A DNA stretch of 37,518 bases from Acidobacteriaceae bacterium (lineage in GTDB: Bacteria > Acidobacteriota > Terriglobia > Terriglobales > Acidobacteriaceae), in contig DAHVZT010000044.1 in assembly GCA_027323885.1 (NCBI GenBank), positions 1-37,518 on the forward strand, written 5' to 3'. Position numbers and translations under genes: made by a program. Below the pieces are notes generated by a model that searched no databases, was not told where the DNA came from, and saw only the letters and a list, made by a program, of their open reading frames with translations. Numbering within the stretch: position 1 is the stretch's first letter; the number at the start of each line of letters is the position of its first letter. Below are positions 20,750-23,731 of the stretch, one piece after another.

Positions 20750-20818
20750 GACACTTGATCTGGCAACCGATTCCGCTGAAAGCCCTTGGCTCGGATGGAT
20801 GGTAAGGAGCACCTGGCA

Positions 20819-22447
20819 TTGACCGCAACCTGTTACCCAGTTACATCCTTACCGCACGTCAGCGCGCTGTTCCGCGACTTCGTTCAAGGTCCGCCCGAAT
20901 CTCTGCGCCGGTTCTACTCTTCTACCTGTTTCGATCAGCGTTGGATGGAGCGATCGCCATCCATGGACAACCGGCGTCAGGAAATTGTCTCGCTGCTGCG
21001 TGACCAGAACCGCAACACCGGCGCGGGAGAGGCAACGGAGGCCAATCTCGACCGGCTCGCAGCAGGCGCTTCGGCCGTTGTGACCGGCCAGCAGGTGGCG
21101 CTCTTTGGAGGTCCGCTGCTTACGCTGTTGAAAGCTGCAACGGCGATCCGTCTGGCTGCGGAGGCTAGCGGTGCCGGCCATCCGCACGTACCGGTCTTCT
21201 GGCTGGCGACCGAGGACCACGATTTCGAAGAGGTGAATCGGGTCGTATTGCCGTGCAGAAACGGTTCTGGAAACGGTTCTTCGGATGATTTGCAGACACT
21301 CCGGCTTCCGCACCATCCCGGCCCCGGAAAACCGGTGGGCAACCTGCTGCTGGGGAATGACATTCAGCCCCTACTGGACCAGCTGCGCCGATGTTTACGG
21401 CAGGCCCCAATTTCCGACACAATCGCAAGGTTCTACACGCCAGGGGCCACCTTCGGCTCGGCTTTCGCCGGCTTGATCTCTCACATCTTCCGTCATCATG
21501 GCCTGATCGTGATCGATGCTTCTTCCAGGCCGTTTCACGCGCTCGCTTCCTCCTCGTTGCGGGCCGCCATCGAACATGCGGACGAACTCCAGCAGGCTTT
21601 ACGGAAGCGTTCCAGCGAACTGGAAAAGGCTGGGTACCACGCCCAGGTTCTGGTATCCGAATCATCCACCCTGCTGTTTTTAATCGATGAAACGAGCGGT
21701 GTGCGGCATGCGCTGAAGAAGACATTTGGGAATGCATGGTCCGCCGCATCGCGCCGATACGAAACCTCGGATTTGCTCTCGATCCTCGAAACCGCGCCAG
21801 AACGCATCAGCCCGAATGCGCTCCTGCGTCCAGTCATGCAGGACGCACTCCTGCCGGCCACCGCGTACGTTGGCGGTCCGGCGGAGATAGCTTATTTTGC
21901 GCAGTCTCAAGTCGTTTACCAGCATGTACTGGGCCGTAACACAGCCGTTTTACCGCGTTTTTCCGCGACCCTGATTGAGCCCAGACTGGCTCGCATCATG
22001 GAGCATTATCAACTGACACTCCCTGACGTGTTCACCACCGGCGAGGCTCTCGCCCAGCGCCTTGGAGCTCGTTTCATGCCTGTGGAGGCGAAGCGGAAAC
22101 TGTCGGCCGCCGGTAATGCGCTGGACCGGGAATTGAAAGCTCTGACGGAGTGGATGCATGGGCAGGATGCCGCTCTCGGCCATGCTGCCGACGTGGCGGC
22201 TTCTAAAATGCTTTACCAGATGAACCGGTTGCGCAGACTGTCGGCGAACTTCGCCCTGAAGCGCGATGAGAAACTGCGCCGCAATGCGGACACATTGTGC
22301 CGCAACCTGTTTCCCCACGGTGATCTGCAGGAACGCGTCCTTGCCGGCGTTTCTTTCCTTGCGGAAATGCAATCTGCGCTTCCCGAGGCTCTGGTCGATC
22401 ACGCGCTGCCTGGCTGTCCCGGGCATTGCGCCCTGCAACTCCCCTGA
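20819..22447 (+). CDS. bshC: Bacillithiol biosynthesis cysteine-adding enzyme BshC
   Basis: Adds cysteine to glucosaminyl-malate, the final step of bacillithiol synthesis; cytosolic. About 542 residues, normal length. Family blocks: LPHVSALFRDF at 11-21, VVTGQQVALFGGP (87-99), PVFWLATEDHDFEEVN (125-140), and YVGGPAEIAYFAQ with ARFMPVEAKRK in the second half, then a coiled-coil region before the C-terminus. The start is best placed at a TTG at 20819 because AAGGAG stands 9 nt before it and the family N-terminus follows at once; an in-frame ATG at 20795 has no RBS. bshA and bshB are not in the window. Downstream lies a short hairpin and then the FNR-like regulator. Confidence 0.92.
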   Translation: MTATCYPVTSLPHVSALFRDFVQGPPESLRRFYSSTCFDQRWMERSPSMDNRRQEIVSLLRDQNRNTGAGEATEANLDRLAAGASAVVTGQQVALFGGPLLTLLKAATAIRLAAEASGAGHPHVPVFWLATEDHDFEEVNRVVLPCRNGSGNGSSDDLQTLRLPHHPGPGKPVGNLLLGNDIQPLLDQLRRCLRQAPISDTIARFYTPGATFGSAFAGLISHIFRHHGLIVIDASSRPFHALASSSLRAAIEHADELQQALRKRSSELEKAGYHAQVLVSESSTLLFLIDETSGVRHALKKTFGNAWSAASRRYETSDLLSILETAPERISPNALLRPVMQDALLPATAYVGGPAEIAYFAQSQVVYQHVLGRNTAVLPRFSATLIEPRLARIMEHYQLTLPDVFTTGEALAQRLGARFMPVEAKRKLSAAGNALDRELKALTEWMHGQDAALGHAADVAASKMLYQMNRLRRLSANFALKRDEKLRRNADTLCRNLFPHGDLQERVLAGVSFLAEMQSALPEALVDHALPGCPGHCALQLP

Positions 22448-22603: not shown

Positions 22604-23389
22604 ATGGCATCTCCCATGCCCCCTGAAAGCGCACTACAAAAGCAGAAAAAATCTGCGATGAATTTCCATTCCATGCAGCACTGCCAGTCCTGCCGCATGC
22701 AGGAGCATCTGCTGATGCATCAGTTGCCCCCTGCCCTGCGCGAAGAACTCAGCAATCTCTCTTTTCGTATTTCTTTGCCTGCGGGCGCAACGATCTTTCA
22801 TGAGGGCGATGATCCAACGGGAGTTCTCATTCTGCGCAAGGGCCGCAGCAAAGTGACCATGAGCTCTCCGGAAGGACGCACGATCATTCTGTATCTCGCC
22901 AGCCACGGAGAAATACTTGGCCTGAGTTCTGTGATTTCCAACACCAAGCGCCAGGTGACGGCAACCGCGATCGAGCCCTGCGAACTCGATCTGGTGAGAC
23001 GCGAAGAATTTCTGTCATTTCTGAGCCGGCATGAAGACCAGTTCAAGGCAGCTCTGGACGAACTGGCGATGCAGCACACCTGCATTCTTGAAGCGATTCG
23101 CCGCCTCTCCCTGGCGCCTTCCCTCGTTGCCAACGTGGCGCGGTTCCTTCTAGGTCTGAACTGTCCGGAAACGGCTGAGCAGACGAATCGCATTCATCTT
23201 CGGCTGACGCAGGAAGAAATTGCGCAGCAACTCGGCACAACGCGTGAGTCGATCACCCGGACGCTTTCCCGGCTTCGCAAGGAGCATGTCATTGAACAGC
23301 GTGGCCATACGATCACTATTCAAAACCGCGCGATGCTTGAACACCTGGCCGCGGCACGACCGGACGAGGTTGCGCTTAAGTTCGCGTAG
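22604..23389 (+). CDS. CRP/FNR family transcriptional regulator with partial FNR cysteine set
   Basis: DNA-binding regulator: cNMP-type sensory barrel (about 43-150), dimer helix (about 150-185) and winged HTH (about 198-245, LTQEEIAQQLGTTRESITRTLSRL). 261 residues. The N-terminus has HCQSC (C27, C30), matching the HCQDC of E. coli FNR (C20, C23). C126 in EPCELDL matches FNR C122 (VCEIPF). The third FNR ligand (C29) would fall at L36, so one of four cluster ligands is missing; C160 and C187 are further cysteines. The recognition helix reads RESITR, with R, E and R as in CRP (RETVGR) rather than FNR's VETISR. So it may sense redox or O2 in a modified way, or be a plain CRP-like protein. AAAGG lies 8 nt before the start. 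The 23402 gene follows 12 nt later. Confidence 0.9.
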   Translation: MASPMPPESALQKQKKSAMNFHSMQHCQSCRMQEHLLMHQLPPALREELSNLSFRISLPAGATIFHEGDDPTGVLILRKGRSKVTMSSPEGRTIILYLASHGEILGLSSVISNTKRQVTATAIEPCELDLVRREEFLSFLSRHEDQFKAALDELAMQHTCILEAIRRLSLAPSLVANVARFLLGLNCPETAEQTNRIHLRLTQEEIAQQLGTTRESITRTLSRLRKEHVIEQRGHTITIQNRAMLEHLAAARPDEVALKFA

Positions 23390-23401: not shown

Positions 23402-23731
23402 ATGAAGGGAAAGAACTCCAAATCGGCGGCAGAATCCGAAATCTTCGACATCACGTGTCCGGATTGCGGGGCTGCGATCAAAGTGGACGCGGCCACACGT
23501 AGCGTCATCGCGCATACACCAGCGCCGCGCAAAAAGACATTTGAAGATTTTGAAGCTGCTACTCGTGCTCTGAAAGAACAGGAAGAGCGCAAACAAACGC
23601 TGTTCCGCCAATCTGTGGAAGCGGAAAAGAACAAAGATGATGTGCTGGCGAAGAAATTCGAGGAGGCCCTGCGCCGCGCCAGAGAAACGCCGGACACCGC
23701 TCGCCCTCTGCGCGACTTCGATTTGGATTGA
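23402..23731 (+). CDS. Small CxxC (half zinc-ribbon) coiled-coil protein, unknown function
   Basis: 109 residues, cytosolic, not assigned. The N-terminal part has DITCPDCGAAIKVD, a zinc-ribbon-like knuckle with a single CxxC pair, so metal binding would require a dimer or partner. A charged helical region follows (about 45-95, FEDFEAATRALKEQEERKQ and onward) with coiled-coil character, then a short acidic tail (LRDFDLD). AGGAG stands about 9 nt before the ATG and the regulator's stop is only 12 nt upstream, so both are made from one transcript. The protein could be a partner of the regulator, but only location supports this. Confidence 0.75.
   Translation: MKGKNSKSAAESEIFDITCPDCGAAIKVDAATRSVIAHTPAPRKKTFEDFEAATRALKEQEERKQTLFRQSVEAEKNKDDVLAKKFEEALRRARETPDTARPLRDFDLD

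Follow-up and report, generated by a model that had tools for sequence, protein, structure and literature searches.

A Crp/Fnr regulator of an Acidobacteriaceae bacterium with what looks like a dismantled four-cysteine site

The oxygen-sensing [4Fe-4S] cluster of Escherichia coli FNR is held by four cysteines (C20, C23, C29 and C122), and published work describes what follows when residues in or around this site are changed: FNR without C122 showed no significant cluster uptake in vivo, although reconstitution in vitro was possible (PMC4214427); L28H renders the cluster oxygen-tolerant (PMC6659574; PMC12343034); and replacement of D154 by alanine raises aerobic FNR activity (PMC6659574). An FNR-type protein without C29 is already in print, as the protein of the acidophile Acidithiobacillus ferrooxidans has serine at position 29, keeps C122 and reportedly still holds its cluster (PMC6659574). 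Non-cysteine ligands have been described as well: Bacillus subtilis Fnr uses three cysteines and Asp141 (PMC3520743), RsrR holds a [2Fe-2S] cluster with Cys, Glu and His, and NsrR employs Asp8 (PMC5411485).

A Crp/Fnr-family regulator encoded in a 37,518-nt stretch of an Acidobacteriaceae genome (contig DAHVZT010000044.1 of assembly GCA_027323885.1; here called the window) was described in an initial annotation as an FNR lacking one of these four cysteines. With E. coli FNR it shares the Crp/Fnr fold and an N-terminal CxxC in the columns of C20 and C23; it differs in the absence of C29, of C122 (there D129) and of D154, and in its reading helix, which is RESITR instead of VETISR. With E. coli CRP it has in common R180, E181 and R185 of the reading helix, the R82 column and a cysteine in the C92 column (C126), but it carries an extra N-terminal CxxC arm and has not kept E72, S83, T127 and S128 of the cAMP pocket. 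The A. ferrooxidans protein resembles it in lacking C29, yet has Ser29 and C122 where the window protein has L36 and D129 (PMC6659574); B. subtilis Fnr is likewise a Crp/Fnr protein and its Asp ligand a precedent for D129, but its three cysteines are C-terminal (PMC3520743). The closest kin are Acidobacteriota proteins with the same reading-helix pattern which keep four cysteines, three in a C-x2-C-x8-C triad and one in a CxGRVK motif of the beta-roll, whereas the window protein and its orthologues (the window branch) keep two of them. Judged from alignments, the protein looks like a Crp/Fnr regulator with a dismantled version of this unusual four-cysteine site, and not like an FNR missing C29 alone.

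The gene, its orthologues and its surroundings

The open reading frame is intact and contains, as first described, HCQSC (C27, C30), C126 and RESITR (Table 1). Both a cNMP_binding domain (64.1 bits, cut-off 27.5) and an HTH_Crp_2 domain (71.5 bits, cut-off 27) are recognized in its product, which places it in the Crp/Fnr superfamily; the FNR model NF008365 (49.2 bits) and the CRP model (57.8 bits) score below their cut-offs of 228 (curated) and 266, respectively. It also matches the PDB entries 5e44 and 8qto, an "FNR type regulator" presumably from Aliivibrio fischeri. The start codon is unsure: the column of Met19 is Met in two of the three orthologues, so the first 18 residues are perhaps untranslated.

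Table 1. Positions of the features of the window; "all four" are the window protein and its three orthologues
Feature	Coordinates	Strand	Basis
BshC, bacillithiol cysteine-adding enzyme; neighbour	20786..22447	+	family search
Crp/Fnr-family regulator, 261 aa (243 aa if started at Met19, base 22658)	22604..23389	+	ORF, domains, three orthologues
CQSC: C27 and C30, FNR C20 and C23 columns; same in all four	22682..22693	+	alignment
H35 (FNR L28 column) and L36 (FNR C29 column); same in all four	22706..22711	+	alignment
H39, where the kin triad has its third cysteine; H/H/S/H in the four	22718..22720	+	alignment
R78, aligned with the kin's beta-roll cysteine (FNR R72 column); R in all four	22835..22837	+	alignment
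C126, CRP C92 and FNR S119 column; cysteine in 75 of the 116 kin with the triad	22979..22981	+	multiple alignments
D129, FNR C122 column; D in all four	22988..22990	+	multiple alignments
Reading helix RESITR, CRP R180/E181/R185 columns	23243..23260	+	alignment
Small CPDC-motif protein; adjoins bshC in genus genomes without the regulator there	23402..23731	+	translation, comparison

Among 398 genomes of the family three orthologues were found, in G512 (76% identity), G588 (67%) and G468 (67%); no further ones emerged from 397 genomes of the order (E 1e-55), and two genomes of the genus of G468 contained none beyond those already known. The assembly that holds the window comprises 2.26 Mb and is 73.6% complete, and within this incomplete genome there was no second match to this Crp/Fnr family at 1e-15; intact four-cysteine paralogues exist in G512 and G588. 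AlphaFold models made from four-row alignments were poor for both the window protein and the four-cysteine relative L036 (mean pLDDT 49.4 and 51.4), too poor for distances to be measured.

The regulator gene sits between bshC and the gene for the small CPDC-motif protein. The latter protein is 79–82% identical across the genus and matches no Pfam family above cut-off (DUF7560 scoring below it) and no NCBIfam family. In six of the nine genus genomes with the CPDC gene, bshC adjoins it directly, with no regulator between them, and the three carriers do not form one clade in a nine-row tree of bshC and the CPDC gene, in which G588 covers only 27% of the columns (three changes, of which support forces at least two). 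In G468 the regulator is found elsewhere, after a gene which, judged from its translation, is thymidylate-kinase-like. With carriers scattered in this small genus tree the regulator gene comes and goes, and repeated loss is the simplest reading. A link to bacillithiol by way of bshC was considered and rejected: because the neighbours are shared without the regulator, its carriers are scattered and its place in G468 is a different one, we claim no functional link, and no pathway can be deduced from the neighbourhood.

Cysteines of the window branch and of its kin

When the protein is aligned by MAFFT with 127 family ORFs, and again with 80 more added, C27 falls on FNR C20, C126 on FNR S119 and D129 in the column of FNR C122; C30 pairs with C23 and L36 with C29. 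The column of C126 is a cysteine in CRP as well (C92, mature numbering). An opposing result comes from a two-sequence BLASTP, which pairs C126 with C122 through a three-residue gap; such a gap also appears when the family profile is aligned by hhalign with FNR as a single sequence. Proteins from outside the phylum support the gap-free register: plasmid records supplied 18 Crp/Fnr loci, of which 16 were compared (L225, which lacks the triad, and L237 were left out), and in each of the five with an N-terminal cysteine triad (from Bernardetia, Sphingobium, Caballeronia, Paraburkholderia and Rhizobium phaseoli) the C122 column is occupied by a cysteine. As this cysteine is also present in five of the 11 outside-phylum proteins without the triad, it is by itself no mark of a cluster. 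The initial annotation had aligned three cysteines with those of FNR; for C27 and C30 this holds, while C126 as the counterpart of C122 is contradicted by the multiple alignments, with the gapped pairwise ones disagreeing. Leucine does occupy the C29 position, but C29 is not the only cysteine missing, D129 being in the C122 column, and the protein lacks the complete FNR ligand set, as had been proposed.

A different set of four emerges from the Acidobacteriota kin, sampled as 166 full-length Crp/Fnr sequences (best or listed matches, excluding the window branch). Dropped before counting were L109 (the same protein as L021), L001, L004, L034 and L035 (copies of sequences already included), L037–L041 (distant or partial) and L056 2259-2786. 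The triad is present in 116 of the 166, all of them distinct, and each of these has a cysteine at the position of residue 78 of the window protein, two residues before the glycine of the beta-roll motif (CxGRVK); none has a cysteine in the C122 column. Outside the phylum the pattern is reversed, with C122 in all six proteins compared (the five triad proteins and E. coli FNR) and the beta-roll cysteine in none. The C126 column is not a cysteine in 41 of the 116, which leaves it outside the four-cysteine set.

Where the triad is lacking (50 sequences), the beta-roll cysteine occurs eight times and the C122-column cysteine three times. In L018 1451-2188, L124, L134 and L159 the CxxC is kept beside the beta-roll cysteine, while the third cysteine is missing or stands elsewhere, so loss is not always joint; the beta-roll cysteine without the CxxC is found in L113, L175, L184 and L188 and, in addition, in two further genus proteins (L253, L259). 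On a 205-row tree from which these columns were excluded, the triad requires 15 changes and the beta-roll cysteine 14; seven independent pairs on supported branches gave on average 4.6 changes in the same direction, 0.0 in the opposite one and 2.4 without a difference, and a median p of 0.0625, which is suggestive. The coupling is also seen in ORFs that lack the HTH domain: among those with a letter in the beta-roll column, the cysteine is there in 19/19 with the triad and in 2/17 without it. One triad-bearing ORF of this kind that was counted, L015 3203-3688, is truncated by the end of its locus; in a twentieth triad ORF, L056 2259-2786, the whole beta-roll segment is missing and with it any letter in that column.

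We infer that the beta-roll cysteine is the fourth ligand, placed on another strand than C122 of FNR, and the kin may hold an FNR-style iron-sulfur cluster in an unfamiliar way. Searches of open-access papers, including ones on RedB and on the CRP/FNR family, yielded no description of an acidobacterial four-cysteine Crp/Fnr pattern.

The HTH-less ORFs (a cNMP domain, up to 230 aa) occur next to four-cysteine regulators: of the 55 loci with flanks, 33 show such a neighbour, 18 of them with the full triad; examples are L005:2320-2889, L049:794-1417 and L058:819-1475. A role as dimer partners, or as sensors that do not bind DNA, is conceivable.

Compared with this set, the window protein has kept the CxxC and has H39 and R78 in place of the third triad cysteine and the beta-roll cysteine; measured against its own kin, "one cysteine missing" is an undercount, since both are absent. 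C27, C30, E34, H35, C126 and D129 are the same in all four branch proteins. The annotation had staked its reading on conservation of C27, C30 and C126 in orthologues, and this conservation is observed; at 67–76% identity their sameness is not due to chance. The run CRMQEHLL, also the same in all four, stands out. Of 236 core positions, however, 131 are identical in the four proteins, which makes single invariant residues weak evidence among such close relatives. A CxxC in the 45 residues that precede the domain occurs in 124 other full-length sequences, and 120 of them have the beta-roll cysteine; the other four are three near-identical proteins with CQLC elsewhere and L170, so that a CxxC without the beta-roll cysteine is rare in this sample.

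Identity of the closest kin to the window protein reaches 39%. The window branch receives an SH-aLRT of 100, and it groups with four-cysteine proteins with an SH-aLRT of 93 (a 62-row group in a quick tree that is compatible with a nested or a sister position); given this grouping, obtained in a short search, the third and the beta-roll cysteine were likely lost within the branch. FNR D154 and R140 (PMC6659574) correspond to I161 and F147 in the window protein; as 116 of the 136 rows of triad-bearing kin have alanine in the D154 column, absence of D154 is a trait of the family.

Reading helix and DNA site

That the reading helix resembles that of CRP is borne out, with R214, E215 and R219 aligned to R180, E181 and R185. 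The pattern R-E-[T/S]-x-x-R is found in all 116 triad-bearing kin and is therefore a rule of the family, not a peculiarity of the window protein. The 260 bases preceding each of 67 four-cysteine genes were scanned for TGTGA-N6-TCACA, and the site is found there far more often than by chance: 13 had a perfect site, 25 one within one mismatch and 35 one within two, where dinucleotide shuffles lead one to expect 0.02, 0.68 and 6.94; equal lengths inside the genes yielded 0, 1 and 4, and a control palindrome 0, 0 and 12. The 67 genes are related and hence not independent, but the spacers and distances of their sites differ. The 43 triad-less genes gave 1, 1 and 11 (shuffles 0.01, 0.52 and 4.36). 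The position of the palindrome upstream of the regulators' own genes suggests self-regulation, and it is the likely target of the four-cysteine group, readable from the group's own promoters.

For the window protein itself the TGTGA-like site that had been predicted is backed by part of the evidence. Five genus paralogues that do not belong to the window branch share the helix LGTTRESITR, and four of them (L242, L243, L245 and L246) have a perfect TGTGA-N6-TCACA 87–88 bases upstream of the aligned start, the fifth (L244) being without one. On the other side, none of the four promoters of the window branch has the palindrome within two mismatches, compared with 35/67 in the kin, where it is common, not universal; TTGAT-N6-ATCAA within two mismatches occurs in 2/4 branch promoters versus 1/67 in the kin. 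The four branch upstream regions share no palindrome with 6-base arms and spacers of 4, 5, 6 or 8.

Genome-wide, perfect TGTGA-N6-TCACA sites number 0 in the window genome (G000; 73.6% complete, as given above), 0 in G512, 6 in G588 and 1 in G468, and 2 to 8 in each of seven genus genomes without an orthologue; the control palindrome gave 0 to 1. Perfect TTGAT-N4-ATCAA occurs 1 to 6 times in all 11 genomes, with no contrast between carriers and non-carriers. A TGTGA regulon in the window genome was rejected on these counts.

Two recurrent palindromes were noted in the genus. One, TGTGATGGCCATCACA, is present in identical form in five genomes (G527, G447, G492, G565 and G553), and the loci around it at L207 and L210 encode a protein with a CxxCH motif of the haem type. 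A second Crp/Fnr group with the helix REVVTR (L254–L257, L261 and L268) has a near-identical palindrome, AGTGACTTAAATCAC[CT], about 80 bases upstream.

What the remaining residues may do

The reading we favour, and consider somewhat probable, is that of a dismantled-site regulator, which would hold no FNR-type [4Fe-4S] cluster, read a TGTGA-like palindrome and be either controlled through its CxxC or independent of a cofactor. It builds on direct observations, namely the missing cysteines, the conservation of the CxxC and the DNA site of the family. The protein would belong to a branch of the Acidobacteriota in which C-x2-C-x8-C and the beta-roll cysteine are otherwise present, presumably by way of an ancestor with all four; in the window branch the third and fourth would have gone and the CxxC been left, to act as a dithiol/disulfide switch or to bind a simple metal, if a cofactor-independent mode does not apply, and the protein would presumably work as a dimer. 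With two of the kin's four cysteines lost, oxygen is probably not sensed by an FNR-style iron-sulfur cluster. D129 in the C122 column bears on this in both directions: C122-less FNR, with its lack of a cluster in vivo, counts for absence of the cluster, and the reconstitution in vitro counts against it (PMC4214427).

Other uses of these residues have to be weighed against the dismantled-site reading. E34, H35 and D129, unchanged in all four branch proteins along with C27 and C30, together with the published non-cysteine ligands of B. subtilis Fnr, RsrR and NsrR, make a mixed-ligand site conceivable, that is, a non-canonical metal or Fe-S site formed by C27 and C30 with H35, E34 or H39, and D129; it is possible but unlikely, as invariance says little among proteins so alike, H39 is serine in one orthologue and the geometry is without structural support. 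Unlikely, too, is a cofactor-free regulator controlled by its own amount alone or by a small molecule that occupies the cNMP pocket, with the CxxC as a remnant. R116 (CRP R82 column) is shared by all four and differs from the 136 triad-bearing kin rows, with 110 Tyr and 19 His, and a gene that comes and goes among scattered carriers would suit such a role; a pure remnant is at odds with the conservation of the CxxC. Of the residues which we take to bind cAMP in CRP (E72, R82, S83, T127 and S128) only R82 is kept; with E72 absent and the other three replaced, cAMP is unlikely to be bound as in CRP. Very unlikely is the FNR-like [4Fe-4S] oxygen sensor with three FNR cysteines in which C126 replaces C122: the gapped BLASTP and hhalign pairings would allow it, and the acidophile's FNR offers a protein that holds its cluster without C29 (PMC6659574), but both the multiple alignments and the intermediate sequences assign C126 to S119, in a column that is cysteine in CRP also and often another residue in the triad-bearing kin.

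A further reading, distinctly improbable in our estimate, joins the kin and the window branch: the four-cysteine proteins would be a separate class of Fe-S sensors with the fourth ligand shifted from the strand of FNR C122 to the beta-roll, and the window lineage would have rebuilt its site from C27, C30, H35 and D129 (Cys2/His/Asp).

If the beta-roll cysteine is indeed a cluster ligand, the 116 distinct full-length acidobacterial regulators of this sample would sense with another ligand set, and motif searches based on C122 of FNR would misread such regulators. The window branch is a natural loss-of-ligand experiment within the same family and, should the Cys2/His/Asp reading be true, one end of a natural series leading from a four-cysteine sensor to a mixed-ligand or thiol sensor.
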